This document shows positions 21,822 through 28,715 of a stretch of DNA of 64,000 nt, in pieces. Below the pieces are notes generated by a model, which was not told where the DNA came from, searched no databases, and saw nothing but the letters and a program-made list of their open reading frames with translations. The DNA comes from Acetobacter lovaniensis (lineage in GTDB: Bacteria > Pseudomonadota > Alphaproteobacteria > Acetobacterales > Acetobacteraceae). The stretch is from the NCBI RefSeq assembly GCF_014207635.1, contig NZ_JACHIE010000004.1, forward strand, positions 62,001 through 126,000. The letters are read 5' to 3'. The translations under genes and the position numbers were made by a program. Numbering within the stretch: position 1 is the first letter of the stretch; the number at the start of each line of letters is the position of its first letter.

Positions 21822-22853
<1,032 letters not shown>

Positions 22854-22948
22854 TTATCCGGACGAATCCGTTTCAAAATATCTCTATGAAAAAATTATAT
22901 TTTTATAATGACACCCCAAAAACCAGTACCCCCTCCATCAACCTGCCC

Positions 22949-23824
22949 TTATGCAAGATTGTGGACATAATCTGCCCCGACAAGAGGAAGATCGAGCCGG
23001 GTAATCTGCATTTCGTCCAGAAAACGCCTTTCATTCCGTGTCAGTTCAACATCTGGCAGAATCGCGTAATGTGGCCCGCTCGAACGCTTCATGATCTGAC
23101 GTGCATATGAACGCAGCATCTGGTCATCAAACCTGCATCCCAGAAACAAAAATCCGACCTGTGTACGGCGCTTTTGCACAATGTCAGGAATCGGCGTCTG
23201 AATGTCGAGTTCTGTCAGCACTTCGACATAATCTGAATCAGCGACCAGATAATGATGTGCCGGGGAAACGGAACCATGCGGTTTGTAAAGTACTGTTTTC
23301 CAGTCCGTTGCATTCTGCATGGTCACGGCATCGCCCTGTGCATCGTAGGCACAATACCAGGTAAAGTCCCGCACACCTGTCCGTGGAGTGCCCTGCACTT
23401 CTCCCCAGCGGTTACCGGCGACACAACCAAGAGCAACCCGCATGATCCCATCATACCATGTATCGACAATCATGGAGGGGGCACTCGCCGCCAGACTGAA
23501 ATGTAGGGGAGAAGGGGCAATGGGAAGGGAAAATGCGCGGTCCATCAGGGCATCGAGTGTCTGGCGGTAGCGTTTGCTTTCAATATACTGTGCCGCAGCC
23601 CACGGATTACCCCTGGCACGCTTTGGCAACGCCACATGCCGTGCAAAAAAATCAGCCAGTTCCTTTGTATTGGACGGAACAGGGCTGTCCGTTTCCTTAC
23701 TCTGTCCCGCAGCCTGTGCAGACTGTTTTTGTAGATCGAGAGCAACCGCCGTCATGCCGGGGCCAAGATAGGGTACCAGATGTCCTGCACTGATCCGTGC
23801 AAAAAGATGATCCCAGCTGATCAT
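22949..23824 (-). CDS. SIR2-like domain protein at the end of the nifB operon
   Basis: 291 residues. The N-terminus (HLFARISAGHLVPYLGPGMT) aligns with the nucleotide-binding start of SIR2-like proteins, where GAGxS is usual; here it is GPGMT. Further family features are YKPHGSVSP, matching the conserved (K)-x-HG-S strand, and FLFLGCRFDDQMLRSYARQI near the C-terminus. It is probably cytoplasmic; no signal or membrane segment is visible. Its start overlaps the nifT stop by 4 bases, so it is in the nifB-fdxN-LRV-nifZ-nifT unit and very likely coexpressed with nitrogenase. SIR2-like folds bind NAD or ADP-ribose, but no function in nitrogen fixation is known to me. Whether it is an NAD-using enzyme or a ligand sensor is open. 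Confidence 0.75.
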   Translation of the reverse strand: MISWDHLFARISAGHLVPYLGPGMTAVALDLQKQSAQAAGQSKETDSPVPSNTKELADFFARHVALPKRARGNPWAAAQYIESKRYRQTLDALMDRAFSLPIAPSPLHFSLAASAPSMIVDTWYDGIMRVALGCVAGNRWGEVQGTPRTGVRDFTWYCAYDAQGDAVTMQNATDWKTVLYKPHGSVSPAHHYLVADSDYVEVLTELDIQTPIPDIVQKRRTQVGFLFLGCRFDDQMLRSYARQIMKRSSGPHYAILPDVELTRNERRFLDEMQITRLDLPLVGADYVHNLA

Positions 23825-24039
23825 AAACCCCCCTCCTCGCCAATACGACGCGCATTGACCGTTACCGGCAATTTTGTTTCGTGTTCCATGGAAGGAAGTT
23901 CAAGCACCCAGCCGTTTTTAAGCCGGACCCACCCACCCCACAACGTTTCTTTTTCCTGGGCGACCACCGGCTGCTCCAGATCTTTTTTGGGTACATAAAC
24001 CGACAAACCCCGGTCATTCCGGCGCAACATCACCTTCAT
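23821..24039 (-). CDS. nifT: NifT/FixU family protein
   Basis: 72 residues, usual NifT length. Family segments are MKVMLRRNDRGLSVYVPKKD, LWGGWVRLKNGWVLELP and the C-terminal LPVTVNARRIGEE. Small predicted beta-rich protein with no assigned role; knockouts elsewhere have mild effects. It overlaps nifZ and the SIR2-like gene by 4 bases each. Confidence 0.92.
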   Translation of the reverse strand: MKVMLRRNDRGLSVYVPKKDLEQPVVAQEKETLWGGWVRLKNGWVLELPSMEHETKLPVTVNARRIGEEGGL

Positions 24040-24320
24040 GGCATTTTCCTATTCTCAGTTTCCGCATGAAGTTCGCGAGCGCGCATGCCAACAATGGTGC
24101 CGCGTTCTACAAACTCGACCGCGTAAATATAGTAACGCTGCAAGAACACACCGATATCCCGCACGTACCCGACATCACCTTTGTGAACGAGCATTTCTCC
24201 AATTTCACGACCAGCAAAAGTTCCGTCATTCTTGACATATCGTGTTGCCCGGACTTTAGCGCCGGGCATGAAAACAGGCTTGCCGCGTGTTTCTACTTCT
24301 TCCTCACGTCCCAATCCCAT
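24036..24320 (-). CDS. nifZ: NifZ
   Basis: 94 residues from ATG at 24320, chosen for AAGGGGAAG just upstream; it overlaps the end of the LRV gene by 17 bases. Conserved parts are PGAKVRATRYVKNDGTFAG, GEMLVHKGDVGYVRDIGVFL and YAVEFVERGTIVGMR. NifZ acts with NifW-type accessory proteins in maturing the second P-cluster pair of MoFe protein. Confidence 0.93.
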   Translation of the reverse strand: MGLGREEEVETRGKPVFMPGAKVRATRYVKNDGTFAGREIGEMLVHKGDVGYVRDIGVFLQRYYIYAVEFVERGTIVGMRARELHAETENRKMP

Positions 24321-25137
24321 GATCTTCCCCTTCTGGATGACCTGTCTGCTTTTCCTCGGCGAGACGACGCGCAACCAGATCACGAATGATTTTTTCCTCA
24401 TCATTTTCCAGCGCTGCAAGCATCGGGTATGGCAATCTTTCAATTGACGTAAACCGGACCCGAATATCGGGATCATGTGCGAGCTGGTGCAACAACCCCT
24501 CCTGCGCACGCGTAGCAACAATCTGACGCACGGTTGGTTCAGGGTCGGATGCAAGGGCTGGCAGATATTTCAGGTCAATGCCCCGCGCCACCCAACGGCG
24601 TACGTCAGGCTCAGGATCATGCACCGCACCAACAAGGCAACTCGCTGACAGACGTCTTACGACAATAAGACGTACAAACCAGTCCTCATCAGCCAGCATT
24701 TTCATCAGGGCTTTACCGCCAAGGCGGCTTGCCACCGCAATGCGCACCCGCCTGTCCGGATCGTTTGCCAATGCTTCAATCCGCGCTACAGGCAGGCGCA
24801 GAGCAACACCTGCCCGGACTTCGGCATCGGGATCGTTAATCAGTGCTGGCAGACGGAATACGGATGCAAACCGCACTGCCAATGTCCGCACTTCAAAATA
24901 GGGATGATCAAGATAATCATTAGCCCCTGAGGGATTTTCACGGAAAAATCTCTCTATCCGGCGTGCGCGTGCATCACGCACACAGACACGCCCGCGACGG
25001 CACCGGCCATCACGGTGCAACTGTTCATGGCGGCAACCCTGACATTGCAGTTTATGGCCGAGCCAGTCATGCGGTTCGGCTGTCTCCCAGGCGGAAATAT
25101 CCCTGAGCTGATCGTCTCCGCTGGCATGATCTGGCAC
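24304..25137 (-). CDS. Leucine-rich-repeat-variant (LRV) protein with N-terminal Fe-S cysteines
   Basis: 277 residues from GTG at 25137 (TGAGGA upstream, after the fdxN stop); an ATG at 25197 is possible but overlaps fdxN and lacks a ribosome site. The N-terminal part has four cysteines, C-x2-C-x10-C-x5-C (residues 32, 35, 46, 52), matching the [4Fe-4S] domain of the Azotobacter LRV protein. The rest is about seven repeats of roughly 24 residues containing DPDxxVRxxVAxRL-type units, a right-handed helical solenoid. LRV proteins are known next to nifB/nif genes but have no assigned function. A protein-interaction or Fe-S sensing role is inference. Confidence 0.85.
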   Translation of the reverse strand: MPDHASGDDQLRDISAWETAEPHDWLGHKLQCQGCRHEQLHRDGRCRRGRVCVRDARARRIERFFRENPSGANDYLDHPYFEVRTLAVRFASVFRLPALINDPDAEVRAGVALRLPVARIEALANDPDRRVRIAVASRLGGKALMKMLADEDWFVRLIVVRRLSASCLVGAVHDPEPDVRRWVARGIDLKYLPALASDPEPTVRQIVATRAQEGLLHQLAHDPDIRVRFTSIERLPYPMLAALENDEEKIIRDLVARRLAEEKQTGHPEGEDHGIGT

Positions 25138-25151
25138 GGCCGCTGGAGTCC

Positions 25152-25346
25152 TCAGGCTGGAATGCAGGTCTTTGGAACAGGGCAGACCGCAGCACATTGC
25201 GGTGTATCAAACTGCCCCTCGCATTCAGTGCATTTTTTGGCGTTGATCACATACAGATCATTCTTGAGAGAAATTGCCGCATTGGGGCATTCAAATTCGC
25301 AAGCGCCACATACAGTGCATTGAGACGTAACAATTTTATAAGCCAT
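25152..25346 (-). CDS. fdxN: FdxN, 2[4Fe-4S] ferredoxin
   Basis: 64 residues with [16 protein letters not shown] and [19 protein letters not shown], the typical bacterial nif ferredoxin with an insertion in the second motif. FdxN ferredoxins donate electrons to nitrogenase Fe protein or to NifB. It directly follows nifB (32 bases), which supports service to NifB as well. Confidence 0.94.
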
Positions 25347-25378: not shown

Positions 25379-26854
25379 TCAAGCGCTCTGGCGCTGTTCC
25401 TGTTGCCCGTTCAGCTGTTCGTACCAATGACCTATCCCCTCTTCAATCCATTCAAGGGCATAGACATCCGTTGCAACAATTCCTGCCGCCGCCAGAGATT
25501 CCTTGGGGCAGTCACCAATTTTTCCGCAAAGCACAGCGCTTACTCCCTCCAGAGCGGCTATGACCCCGTCCAGAGTTGCATCCTCTCCCCAACCGCCCTC
25601 ACAGTACTGTTCGGTTTTGCGGTGCCCGACAAACTTGATTCCCTGACTGGAGACTTCATAAATCTGGAATTCCGTAGCATGACCAAAATGCTGGTTAATG
25701 CGCCCACCACCTTTTGTCGCTATTGCGACCAGCGCGACCGGAGCCTGTTGAACTTCCACCAGAGATTCACTTGCTGCACGTTTGGCCGCTTCATGTTCTC
25801 CGCGCATTTCCGCAACAAGGGCACGATAATTCCCCCGACGGGATGGATCATAGGCAACAGCCTCTTCCAGCTGATCCAGCGTAAACTCCTGACCACGGTC
25901 CTCGCCCAGCAGCCCTACGGCATCAGCCCGGCACTGCCTGCAATGCCGCATAAGCTTTGCGCCATCCTCCAACTGATCCTGCAAAGCCTTGAGTTCAGCA
26001 GGCGTGGGGCCGCGCTGACCGGTCAATCCATAATGGGTGCCATGCGCCGGGTCGGAAATAAGTGGCATGATATTGTGCAAGAATGCGCCTTTTTCCTTAA
26101 CAACCCTGTTGACCTCCATCAGATGCGTATCATTCACTCCCGGGATCATGACTGAGTTGATCTTGGTGAGAATACCACGCGCGGTCAGCATCTCCAGACC
26201 GAGCATCTGCCGTTCATGCAGGATTTTTGAGGCGTCCAGCCCTGTCCAGCGTCGATTTTTATAAAAAATCCAGGGGTAAATCTGCACACCGATCTCAGGA
26301 TTAACCATGTTGATGGTAATTGTGACATGATCAATGTTCATGTCCGCAATTTCGTCCACATGATCAGGCAGAGCCAGACCATTGGTGGAAAGACACAGTT
26401 TAATATCTGGAATATCCGCCGCGATCAGCCCAAATGTGTCGCGTGTTTTTTTCCAGTCATAACAGGCGTCTCCTGGTCCTGCGATCCCAAGCACAGAAAG
26501 CTGCGGAACCTCATTGGCGACGGTAATCACCTTGCGCTGCGCTTGCTCTGGTGTCAGTTTTTCCGAGACAACACCGGGCCGACTTTCGTTTGCGCAGTCA
26601 TATTTTCGGTTACAGTAGTTACACTGAATGTTACATGCAGGAGCCACAGCCACATGCATCCGCGCAAAATAATGATGCGCTTCCTCCGAGTAGCATGGAT
26701 GATCCTTGATTTTTGCCCATACTTCGTCAGGCATGGAATCCGGTTTGTCTGAGCTCCCGCACTGAGACGACGAGCACCCGCCCGAGAGCGCTGCACGCAT
26801 GGTTTCTGCATCACTACCTGCAAAATTCTGCAGGCCGATCAACTGCCCGGCCAT
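25379..26854 (-). CDS. nifB: NifB, radical-SAM FeMo-co core synthase
   Basis: 491 residues. The radical-SAM cysteines are in APACNIQCNYCNRKYDC. Extra cluster ligands include the cysteine in HPCYSEEAHHYFARMH and the pair in RHCRQCRADAVG. The last 120 residues are a NifX-like domain (VAIATKGGGRINQHFGHA). It makes the carbide-containing NifB-co from two [4Fe-4S] clusters and SAM. This is the full two-domain form. First gene of the nifB-fdxN-LRV-nifZ-nifT-SIR2 unit. Confidence 0.97.
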   Translation of the reverse strand: MAGQLIGLQNFAGSDAETMRAALSGGCSSSQCGSSDKPDSMPDEVWAKIKDHPCYSEEAHHYFARMHVAVAPACNIQCNYCNRKYDCANESRPGVVSEKLTPEQAQRKVITVANEVPQLSVLGIAGPGDACYDWKKTRDTFGLIAADIPDIKLCLSTNGLALPDHVDEIADMNIDHVTITINMVNPEIGVQIYPWIFYKNRRWTGLDASKILHERQMLGLEMLTARGILTKINSVMIPGVNDTHLMEVNRVVKEKGAFLHNIMPLISDPAHGTHYGLTGQRGPTPAELKALQDQLEDGAKLMRHCRQCRADAVGLLGEDRGQEFTLDQLEEAVAYDPSRRGNYRALVAEMRGEHEAAKRAASESLVEVQQAPVALVAIATKGGGRINQHFGHATEFQIYEVSSQGIKFVGHRKTEQYCEGGWGEDATLDGVIAALEGVSAVLCGKIGDCPKESLAAAGIVATDVYALEWIEEGIGHWYEQLNGQQEQRQSA

Positions 26855-26890
26855 CTGCCCTTCTCCCCTTTGTTGCTTAGCAGAAAAGCC

Positions 26891-26905
26891 GCAAAATTCG
26901 TGCCA
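26891..26905 (-). promoter_or_regulatory. Sigma-54 promoter of the nifB operon
   Basis: On the minus strand: TGGCACG-AATT-TTGC, perfect consensus; start predicted near 26879, 25 bases before nifB. I found no perfect NifA site between here and the nifA stop. Confidence 0.9.
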
Positions 26906-27038
26906 AACTGCACAGTGGCTTTAAATAAAGGGGGGATGAATTTACCGGGGATAATCCCTGCAAGGCATGCTGCGCACAACCATGACAGCGCCACATAAAA
27001 ACGGATTAGTTTAAAAAAACAAATCCTGACGTTCTGAT

Positions 27039-28715
27039 TCAGAACTTTTTGATCGAGATTCCATTTTTACGCAGAGCATATCCAACCTGCCGTGGAGTCA
27101 GACCAAGGATACGTGCCGCTTTGGCCTGAACCCACCCCGCTTTTTCCATGGCATCTTCAAGCATTTCCTTCTCCGAACGTCCGGGCGCTGTCGTATCGAC
27201 CGAAGCGGATGGCGCAGACTCTTCGCGCATGGGAAGCAGAAGGGATTGCTTGGCAGAAGAGGATAGAACACTCTCCGCCCCACCAACCTGCCACAACACA
27301 GAAGAGAGACAGCCATCGCTATGACAGGCAAAATCATCCTCGCCAATAACGCTCCCGCGTGACAGGGTCGCCGTACGCCGGATACAGTTTTCCAGCTCAC
27401 GCACATTCCCCGGGAAATAACAGCCACTTAAAACGGCAAGCCCATTGGAATCAATCTGCAATTCAGTACCATTTTCCTGATTGAAACGATCCAGAAACTC
27501 CTTTGCCAGCAAAGGGATATCTGTTGGACGTTCCCGCAGGGAAGGTAGAAAAACAGGGATGACGCTGAGCCTGTAATAAAGATCGGCACGGAATTTGCCT
27601 TTGGTTACCGCGTCTTCCAGGTCCCGGTTGGTCGCTGCGACAATACGCACATTCACCTTTAAGGTGCGTGTGCCCCCGACCCTTTCAAATTCACCTTCTT
27701 GCAGAACACGCAAAAGCTTTGCCTGAAAAGATGCTGAAATCTCACCAATTTCATCAAGAAACAATGTACCGCTGTCGGCCAGCTCAAAACGGCCTTTTCT
27801 AGCCGCAACTGCTCCGGTAAATGCTCCTTTCTCATGCCCGAACAACTCAGATTCAAGAACCGTTTCGGGCAGGGCTGCGCAATTGAGCTTGACGAATGGC
27901 GCCTTGGAACGCGGTGAAAACTGATGCAACGCACGGGCAAAGACCTCTTTGCCGGTTCCAGACTCCCCCCGTAGAAGCACCGTGGCGTTACTGCGCGCAA
28001 CAATGCGGATTTTTTCCACAATCGCTGTAATGGCAGGGCTTTCCCCCACAATACGGACATCTGCCGTGTCGGCATGCACTGCGGCCCCCAGCTTGGCCAC
28101 CTCGGTCCGGCGATCCAGATCGCCCATAAGCCTTTCGCGGTCACGCTCAACCAGCCTGTGCAGACGCACGGTCTGCCCGATCAGGTGCCCAACCATGGCC
28201 AGCAGACGTGTATTCAGTGCGACAACCGGAGAGTCTGAAGAAAAAGCCTTACAATCCACGACCAGAATACCAATAATGCTATCCCGTCCGGGAATGGGCA
28301 CACCAATCAGGCCCACCTGCCGGGGATTGACGGCCCACGCAGGTTTTGCCCGAAAACCGATAGTCTGGTCATTGGCAATGTCCGGTATAATCAGGGGGGC
28401 TTTGTGCGTAACGATATGACCGAGAACCCGCTCCGGCATGGACATGAAATAATCACGGGAAATAACAGGATCTCCGTGTGAGCCTACAATCCGCTCCACC
28501 CGGTCTCCTTCACCAAGCAGCACACACACGCACGCGTTCATATCAAGAAAATTCTCAAGCGTTGCAAACACCTGAACAAGCATAACGCCCAGTTCAATGG
28601 GGGAGCACAGTATCCGGGAAATTTCATATAACCCGGACAAAGCAACTTCAGCGCTTGTCTCCGTTATGCCAGTGGCACCAGACATAATGCCCTGACTTTC
28701 TTTTCGTAGCGTCAT
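27039..28715 (-). CDS. nifA: NifA, sigma-54-dependent nif activator (oxygen-sensitive type)
   Basis: 558 residues. Domains: GAF (about 30-185), AAA+ (about 220-455) with Walker A GESGTGKE near 250 and the sigma-54 contact loop GAFTGA at 297-302, and a C-terminal Fis-type helix-turn-helix (KAARILGLTPRQVGYALRK). Between the last two are four cysteines, Cys432-x11-Cys444-x19-Cys464-x4-Cys469. This is the metal/redox motif of NifA proteins that sense oxygen directly, so no NifL is needed and none is seen. The 217 bases upstream have no sigma-54 promoter; nifA is probably driven by another sigma factor. Confidence 0.97.
   Translation of the reverse strand: MTLRKESQGIMSGATGITETSAEVALSGLYEISRILCSPIELGVMLVQVFATLENFLDMNACVCVLLGEGDRVERIVGSHGDPVISRDYFMSMPERVLGHIVTHKAPLIIPDIANDQTIGFRAKPAWAVNPRQVGLIGVPIPGRDSIIGILVVDCKAFSSDSPVVALNTRLLAMVGHLIGQTVRLHRLVERDRERLMGDLDRRTEVAKLGAAVHADTADVRIVGESPAITAIVEKIRIVARSNATVLLRGESGTGKEVFARALHQFSPRSKAPFVKLNCAALPETVLESELFGHEKGAFTGAVAARKGRFELADSGTLFLDEIGEISASFQAKLLRVLQEGEFERVGGTRTLKVNVRIVAATNRDLEDAVTKGKFRADLYYRLSVIPVFLPSLRERPTDIPLLAKEFLDRFNQENGTELQIDSNGLAVLSGCYFPGNVRELENCIRRTATLSRGSVIGEDDFACHSDGCLSSVLWQVGGAESVLSSSAKQSLLLPMREESAPSASVDTTAPGRSEKEMLEDAMEKAGWVQAKAARILGLTPRQVGYALRKNGISIKKF

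Follow-up and report, generated by a model that had tools for sequence, protein, structure and literature searches.

The genome of Acetobacter lovaniensis (assembly GCF_014207635.1) carries a nitrogen fixation (nif) region whose nifB operon ends in a gene for a SIR2-like protein, and this raises the question of what such a protein does among the genes for nitrogenase. We analyzed a stretch of 64,000 nucleotides of contig NZ_JACHIE010000004.1 (positions 62,001 to 126,000 of the forward strand; hereafter, the window), in which this gene lies at 22949..23824 on the minus strand. On balance, and with modest confidence, we favor the view that it is an accessory nif gene encoding a SIR2 fold that has lost the residue pair for cleaving nicotinamide adenine dinucleotide (NAD), and that its product supports nitrogenase at the protein level under respiration.

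The gene is an intact open reading frame (ORF) with an ATG start, 291 amino acids and no internal stops. Its start codon (23824-23822) shares the tetranucleotide ATGA with the stop codon of nifT (23823-23821), which confirms the 4-base overlap and the position at the end of the nifB operon that had been described in an earlier interpretation made from the letters alone (the sequence-only reading). The product matches the Pfam family SIR2_2 (PF13289; E 1.9e-22; score 80.3 bits, cut-off 24.5), no second Pfam domain was found at E <= 1, and the NCBIfam scan gave no match at the same limit. The gene is the sole match within its own genome at E <= 0.001. The ratio of non-synonymous to synonymous substitution rates (dN/dS) relative to the two nearest Acetobacter relatives was 0.06-0.07, with saturated dS against locus L004, and the same measure for the operon neighbors nifT, nifZ, nifB and the LRV gene was 0.03-0.12. 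The gene thus encodes a protein under selection, and a chance ORF can be excluded.

The relatives came from a scan of named genomes that gave 154 stretches, 136 of which contain relatives; the best 80 of these 136, a set biased to close ones (45-90% identical), were examined. They were aligned with the window protein, the sequences of Rhizobium etli and Methylococcus, and those of 26 further genomes (109 rows, some of them near copies; L114, L115 and 72 other plasmid records were left out). The GPGMT loop and the HGS strand (KPHGS) noted in the sequence-only reading are both present, and the pocket is indeed modified, but the proposed NAD/ADP-ribose (adenosine diphosphate ribose) site does not appear to be a working cleavage site, since in none of the 109 sequences of the alignment was the ThsA-type Asn/His pair for NAD cleavage intact. 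The position of ThsA N112 is occupied by Trp123 in the window protein and by Trp in 94 of 109 rows, and the 15 sequences that have Asn here all lack the His. The catalytic His (H152 in ThsA, H146 in KomC) corresponds to H183, which is present in 80 rows and absent from 29; the R. etli protein, encoded at the same operon place, has Tyr at this position. The histidine of HGS seemed a constant of the family among close relatives (80 of 81), and this idea was dropped when wider relatives were added.

The AlphaFold model of the window protein (predicted local distance difference test, pLDDT, 89.8; predicted template modeling score, pTM, 0.90) was of low certainty at residues 202-209. The closest solved structures were ThsA, DSR2 and KomC; the top-ranked ones were defense NADases, and the sirtuin SIRT3 appeared at rank 44. 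The protein has three cysteines and no CxxC pair and thus lacks the four-Cys zinc module of sirtuin deacylases. An acidic/basic face is conserved, namely, the loop SD(S/A)D(Y/F)V(E/D)xxTE...IP and the helix after GCRF. The Cys of GCRF (C230) was found in 81 of 81 close relatives and is replaced in the PnfA type (described below), L109 and L144. The loss of the dyad suggests that the window protein is most likely a SIR2 fold put to a new use, and neither a NADase nor a deacetylase.

The family is nearly confined to nif-bearing genomes in our samples, which were drawn evenly rather than randomly, with up to six candidates per genome scored in the class and phylum profile searches. Among 385 alphaproteobacterial genomes, nifD was found in 13 and the SIR2 gene in 7, all within the nifD set; among 398 genomes of Pseudomonadota, the numbers were 41 and 17, with both genes in 15 (Fisher p = 7e-12 and 1e-14, respectively, uncorrected for kinship). 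One of the two remaining carriers, G611, has nifA-nifB-fdx-nifZ-nifT-SIR2 together with part of nifH at the edge of a contig; if this broken assembly is counted, 16 of the 17 SIR2 genomes are nif-bearing. The exception is G440, which has the SIR2 gene; a search for nifH gave nothing over the cut-off there, and none of the 14 kb read matched a nif gene.

The expectation of the sequence-only reading that orthologs would follow nif genes in other diazotrophs was borne out, with a nif operon in 80/80 of the best relatives and a fixed operon place across more than 20 named genera. In all 80, nifT lies immediately upstream on the same strand. Two operon layouts were observed, with nifB upstream in 42 loci and downstream in 37 (one locus did not cover it); where nifB is downstream, nifZ was elsewhere in 34 loci and not found in 3. 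The nifT-SIR2 pair therefore persists while its neighbors shift. The arrangement is looser in the independent sample of 48 nifD-positive genomes, where the SIR2 gene of 9 of the 14 close relatives adjoins nifT, and the other five are at 1.2-2.1 kb on the same strand. The 4-base overlap was counted in 11 of the 80 loci, including all 8 of Acetobacter, Gluconacetobacter and Komagataeibacter, although this number depends on the scripted rule by which the starts of the relatives were chosen.

Several loci differ in detail. On a plasmid of Methylococcus sp. EFPC2 (L103, 6727-9843), four genes separate nifT from the SIR2 gene (those for a DegT/DnrJ-type aminotransferase and a 2Fe-2S ferredoxin, in this order, with one short hypothetical gene on either side of the two); at the other loci where the two are apart, the gap is 0.6-2.1 kb. 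In Komagataeibacter swingsii (L006, 8765-11740), about 3 kb, possibly an insertion, lies between the SIR2 gene and nifH, compared with 0.2-0.35 kb at the other Acetobacter, Gluconacetobacter and Komagataeibacter loci. The loci of Mesorhizobium ciceri and M. neociceri (L075 and L076, 383-14534) have two nifA-like genes, one on each side of the operon, on opposite strands. The gene occurs at 2-3 places on many Rhizobium plasmids, and partial extra copies were seen in genomes of the same class (G417:C1526, G417:C1537, G611:C47, G611:C54 and G560:C107), which are perhaps debris of duplicated nif regions. One internal stop was reported inside the SIR2 matches of G891, G772 (PnfA type) and G945.

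A more remote branch of the family probably links it to a protein that has been studied by mutation. Four of the 18 nifD-positive genomes with a SIR2 gene carry this branch (E 1.5e-30 to 1.5e-32), and the profile of the window family recovers its proteins at 4e-29 to 2e-32. A query of this type, run against 258 genomes of the class to which G711 belongs (Gammaproteobacteria), gave 19 matches, 12 of them close (57-66% identical, including G711) and 7 remote (25-29%); nif genes were present in 15 of the 17 stretches read from this sample. In 9 of 11 close-type loci, the gene is 0.4-1.7 kb from nifH in divergent orientation, and the four branch proteins that were weighed were 31.4-32.3 kDa. The pnfA gene (PST1325) of Pseudomonas stutzeri A1501 is described as coding for a 31.7 kDa protein of the nif island, divergent from nifH and specific to diazotrophs (PMC2820453), and a later paper calls PST_1325 a SIR2 family protein (PMC11332353). 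The nine loci agree with pnfA in their reported location and direction relative to nifH; we therefore infer a link to PST1325, and we refer to this branch as the PnfA type. The study of pnfA also groups ten hypothetical proteins with ~20% identity to PnfA into a second subfamily (PMC2820453), which may be the nifT-linked SIR2 group. In a quick tree of the 109 rows, supported by the Shimodaira-Hasegawa-like approximate likelihood ratio test (SH-aLRT) alone and with long branches for L109 and L141, one branch (SH-aLRT 100) set the 15 PnfA-type rows apart and another (SH-aLRT 99) the 82 nifT-adjacent rows, with 12 others in between; on this tree, two changes are required for the 12 rows in which nifT is more distant. 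The PnfA-type rows keep the Asn (DINRD) and have lost the His, which is the reverse of the window protein.

According to the report on P. stutzeri, pnfA expression depends on NifA and sigma-54, and nitrogenase activity in the mutant at 0.5% O2 was 23% of the wild-type level. With nitrate as the acceptor, the mutant no longer fixed nitrogen; under anaerobic conditions without nitrate, it equaled the wild type, whose activity was itself low. The transcription of nifH is described as unaltered, and activity was regained on complementation (PMC2820453). The gene is also named in PMC5923616 and PMC9144888. Among the other SIR2-like genes of nif clusters, Rcc03262 is reported as not detected in a Rhodobacter capsulatus nifA double mutant (PMC6925177), ZMO1821 is located in the nif cluster of Zymomonas mobilis (PMC8594446), and Rhodovulum operons are shown with a SIR2-like gene after nifT (PMC9412634).

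A SIR2 fold without the cleaving pair, production within the nif regulon, and a likely relative whose phenotype appears in the respiring state with transcription unaffected are together best read as pointing to a binding protein that supports nitrogenase post-translationally. In the mechanism that we propose, the gene would most likely be transcribed from the nifB promoter under NifA/sigma-54 control. With Asn replaced by Trp, and His also lost in many relatives, the protein would no longer cleave NAD and would work by binding, either of a nucleotide or of a partner, for which NifT, NifH and NifDK are candidates; a part in maturation is another possibility. It would most likely support nitrogenase after transcription when electrons go to O2 or nitrate, acting through the conserved acidic/basic face formed by the loop and the helix after GCRF. 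The window protein may thus share the role of PnfA, and NifT is presumably functionally close to it.

Several observations weigh against this view. The pnfA mutant is reported to be still Nif+ and to grow on nitrogen-free semisolid medium (PMC2820453), and a Mesorhizobium loti R7A msi351::lacZ mutant is described as fully effective on Lotus (PMC3538637). Expression is not purely linked to N2, as ZMO1821 also rose with phenolic aldehyde inhibitors (PMC4578398). The SIR2 gene is missing from 6 of 13 nifD-positive alphaproteobacteria and from 30 of the 48 nifD-positive genomes, being present in 18/48 compared with 46/48 for nifT, and thus it cannot be a general requirement of nitrogenase. PnfA-type proteins share only 25-28% identity with the window protein, and their role may differ; the placement of PST1325 within their clade is suggested by gene order, size, reported diazotroph specificity and name. 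Two stretches of the gammaproteobacterial sample (L135 and L138) showed no nif gene within the part read, and of the four loci L110-L113, L110 alone has the divergent arrangement with nifH, over a distance of 4.5 kb; L112 lacks it, and the stretches of L111 and L113 contain no nifH. Finally, H183 is retained in 80 of 82 rows of the window protein's own clade, so some pocket chemistry may survive there.

The strongest alternative, which we regard as possible but doubtful, is that the SIR2 fold serves as a scaffold acting with NifT and NifZ in the assembly of the MoFe protein or a metal cluster, with no nucleotide involved. The persistence of the gene beside nifT through both layouts is consistent with this, as are the operon shared with nifB, nifZ and the LRV/FeS protein, and the conserved charged residues with the invariant loop at which AlphaFold is unsure. 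However, a pure assembly factor predicts something other than the reported wild-type (low) activity of the pnfA mutant under anaerobic conditions without nitrate (PMC2820453), PnfA-type genes are near nifH rather than nifT, and acetylene reduction in a M. loti fixU (nifT) mutant is described as no different (PMC3538637). In a model of a NifT-SIR2 read-through fusion (pTM 0.78), NifT and the SIR2 protein were each well folded but gave no docking signal, with the loop still of low certainty; with 16 of 17 in-frame loci as paired rows, this is weak evidence.

Slightly less probable, and put forward tentatively, is the idea of a nif-dedicated pseudo-sirtuin: the change of Asn to Trp would have left a pocket that senses NAD(H), ADP-ribose or some other nucleotide without cleaving it, and the invariant DYVE-TE-IP loop would signal to the nitrogenase machinery whether the cell respires. 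If true, this would represent a post-translational redox checkpoint common to alpha- and gammaproteobacteria and separate from NifL and DraTG.

An NAD-dependent lysine deacylase with nitrogenase or NifA as its target, as guessed for Zymomonas ZMO1821, is unlikely. In Z. mobilis, acetylation of NifA and of nitrogenase proteins is reported under N2 fixation, with ZMO1821 rising alongside (PMC8600466), and the window clade retains His183; against this stand the substitution of Asn by Trp, the loss of His in 29/109, the lack of a zinc-binding CxxC pair, and a fold ranking headed by defense NADases rather than by SIRT3.

Even less probable is the proposal of the sequence-only reading that the protein substitutes for DraT/DraG in the reversible switch-off of the Fe protein. 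The absence of DraT that it had noted is correct, as the genome of the window gave no draT match (PF07357), and switch-off in the absence of DraT/DraG is reported for P. stutzeri (PMC2820453). Over the 48 nifD-positive genomes, draT was found in 30, in 6 of 18 with the SIR2 gene compared with 24 of 30 without it (p 0.002). This avoidance tracks lineage, however, with 3/12 compared with 3/6 in the alphaproteobacteria (p 0.34) and 3/6 compared with 21/24 in the rest (p 0.08; Fisher tests without kinship correction). Both genes coexist in six genomes, and R. capsulatus also has both (draTG; PMC6925177). Lineage thus explains much of the pattern, no sign of a site adding or removing ADP-ribose was seen, and we dropped the substitution idea. 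An anti-phage SIR2 gene hitch-hiking into a nif island is highly improbable, since the resemblance to ThsA, DSR2 and KomC and a weak PADLOC match to ThsA (5.9e-5) are outweighed by the fixed operon place, the NifA dependence, the broken catalytic pair, the lack of a second domain and the absence of a match in the phage collection searched with the window protein.

The operon nifB-fdx-LRV-nifZ-nifT-SIR2 lies on the minus strand, as do the flanking nif genes. The SIR2 gene is preceded by nifT (23821..24039; PF06988, 6.6e-30; TIGR02934, 1.4e-31), nifZ (24036..24320; PF04319, 1.1e-31), a gene for an LRV/FeS4 protein (24304..25197; PF01816, 1.1e-25; PF05484, 1.2e-20), whose real start may be downstream, and a 4Fe-4S ferredoxin gene of the fdxN type (25152..25346; Fer4, 7.7e-7); Pfam thus confirmed these four neighbors named in the sequence-only reading. 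The first gene is nifB (25379..26854), whose protein is 61% identical to the annotated NifB of L103, and nifA lies upstream of it (27039..28715; TIGR01817, 5.7e-203). A sigma-54 -24/-12 site, TGGCACGAATTTTGC, was found upstream of nifB (26891..26905, minus strand), and another, TGGCACAGTATTTGC, between the SIR2 gene and nifH (22788..22802, minus strand), the pattern TGGYAC-N5-TTGC occurring at five sites on both strands of the whole window. The nifH gene (21822..22721) was assigned by visual inspection and from its position ahead of nifD, itself confirmed by TIGR01282; it is 227 bases from the SIR2 stop and, given the sigma-54 site, probably starts its own unit with its own promoter. No activator site of the form TGT-N10-ACA was found in 26855-27400 or in 22728-23100, and a terminator scan of 22700-24400 gave one site on the plus strand and none for the SIR2 operon.

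Our analysis brings together in one family the "SIR2 family" genes scattered among nif operons and, by inference, PnfA, and the pair intact in 0 of 109 sequences argues against the published deacetylase reading. As far as the literature searched shows, neither the broken pair across the nif family nor the link to PnfA is in print. The window gene is real and conserved, and it probably belongs to a branch of a family with one characterized member. The statement that SIR2-like proteins have no recognized role in nitrogen fixation is therefore outdated, as PnfA (2010) and Msi351 (2013) have been mutated and ZMO1821 and Rcc03262 listed among the proteins of nif clusters. The suggested link to nitrogenase is backed by the mutant of PnfA, a likely relative, but not in the form of a site cleaving NAD or ADP-ribose, and the published mutants give a mixed answer to the refuting condition named in that reading, with a drop in activity in P. 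stutzeri and no effect on the symbiosis of M. loti. Since a nine-gene Paenibacillus nif set without a SIR2 gene has been moved into Escherichia coli (PMC4761190), the gene may be a useful accessory for fixation at low oxygen.

Compared with known systems, the window protein resembles PnfA in its nif island, its SIR2 family name and the lack of an intact Asn/His pair in the 15 PnfA-type rows; PnfA is NifA-sigma-54 dependent and reported from diazotrophs only, and genes of its type are mostly divergent from nifH, whereas the window gene follows nifT. Msi351 of M. loti R7A, Rcc03262 of R. capsulatus and ZMO1821 of Z. mobilis appear in the literature as SIR2- or sirtuin-like members of nif clusters, and the first two lie directly after fixU/nifT, like the window gene. 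With DraT/DraG, the likeness is confined to the idea of NAD-linked control of nitrogenase, as the window protein matches only SIR2_2 at E <= 1, with no DRAT-family match, and draT co-occurs with the SIR2 gene. Sirtuin deacylases such as SIRT3 have the zinc Cys module and the Asn that the window protein lacks. The SIR2 domain of ThsA (Thoeris), DSR2 and KomC are active NADases with both Asn and His in a defense context, and ThsA and DSR2 carry further domains, in contrast to the single, probably repurposed domain of the window protein.
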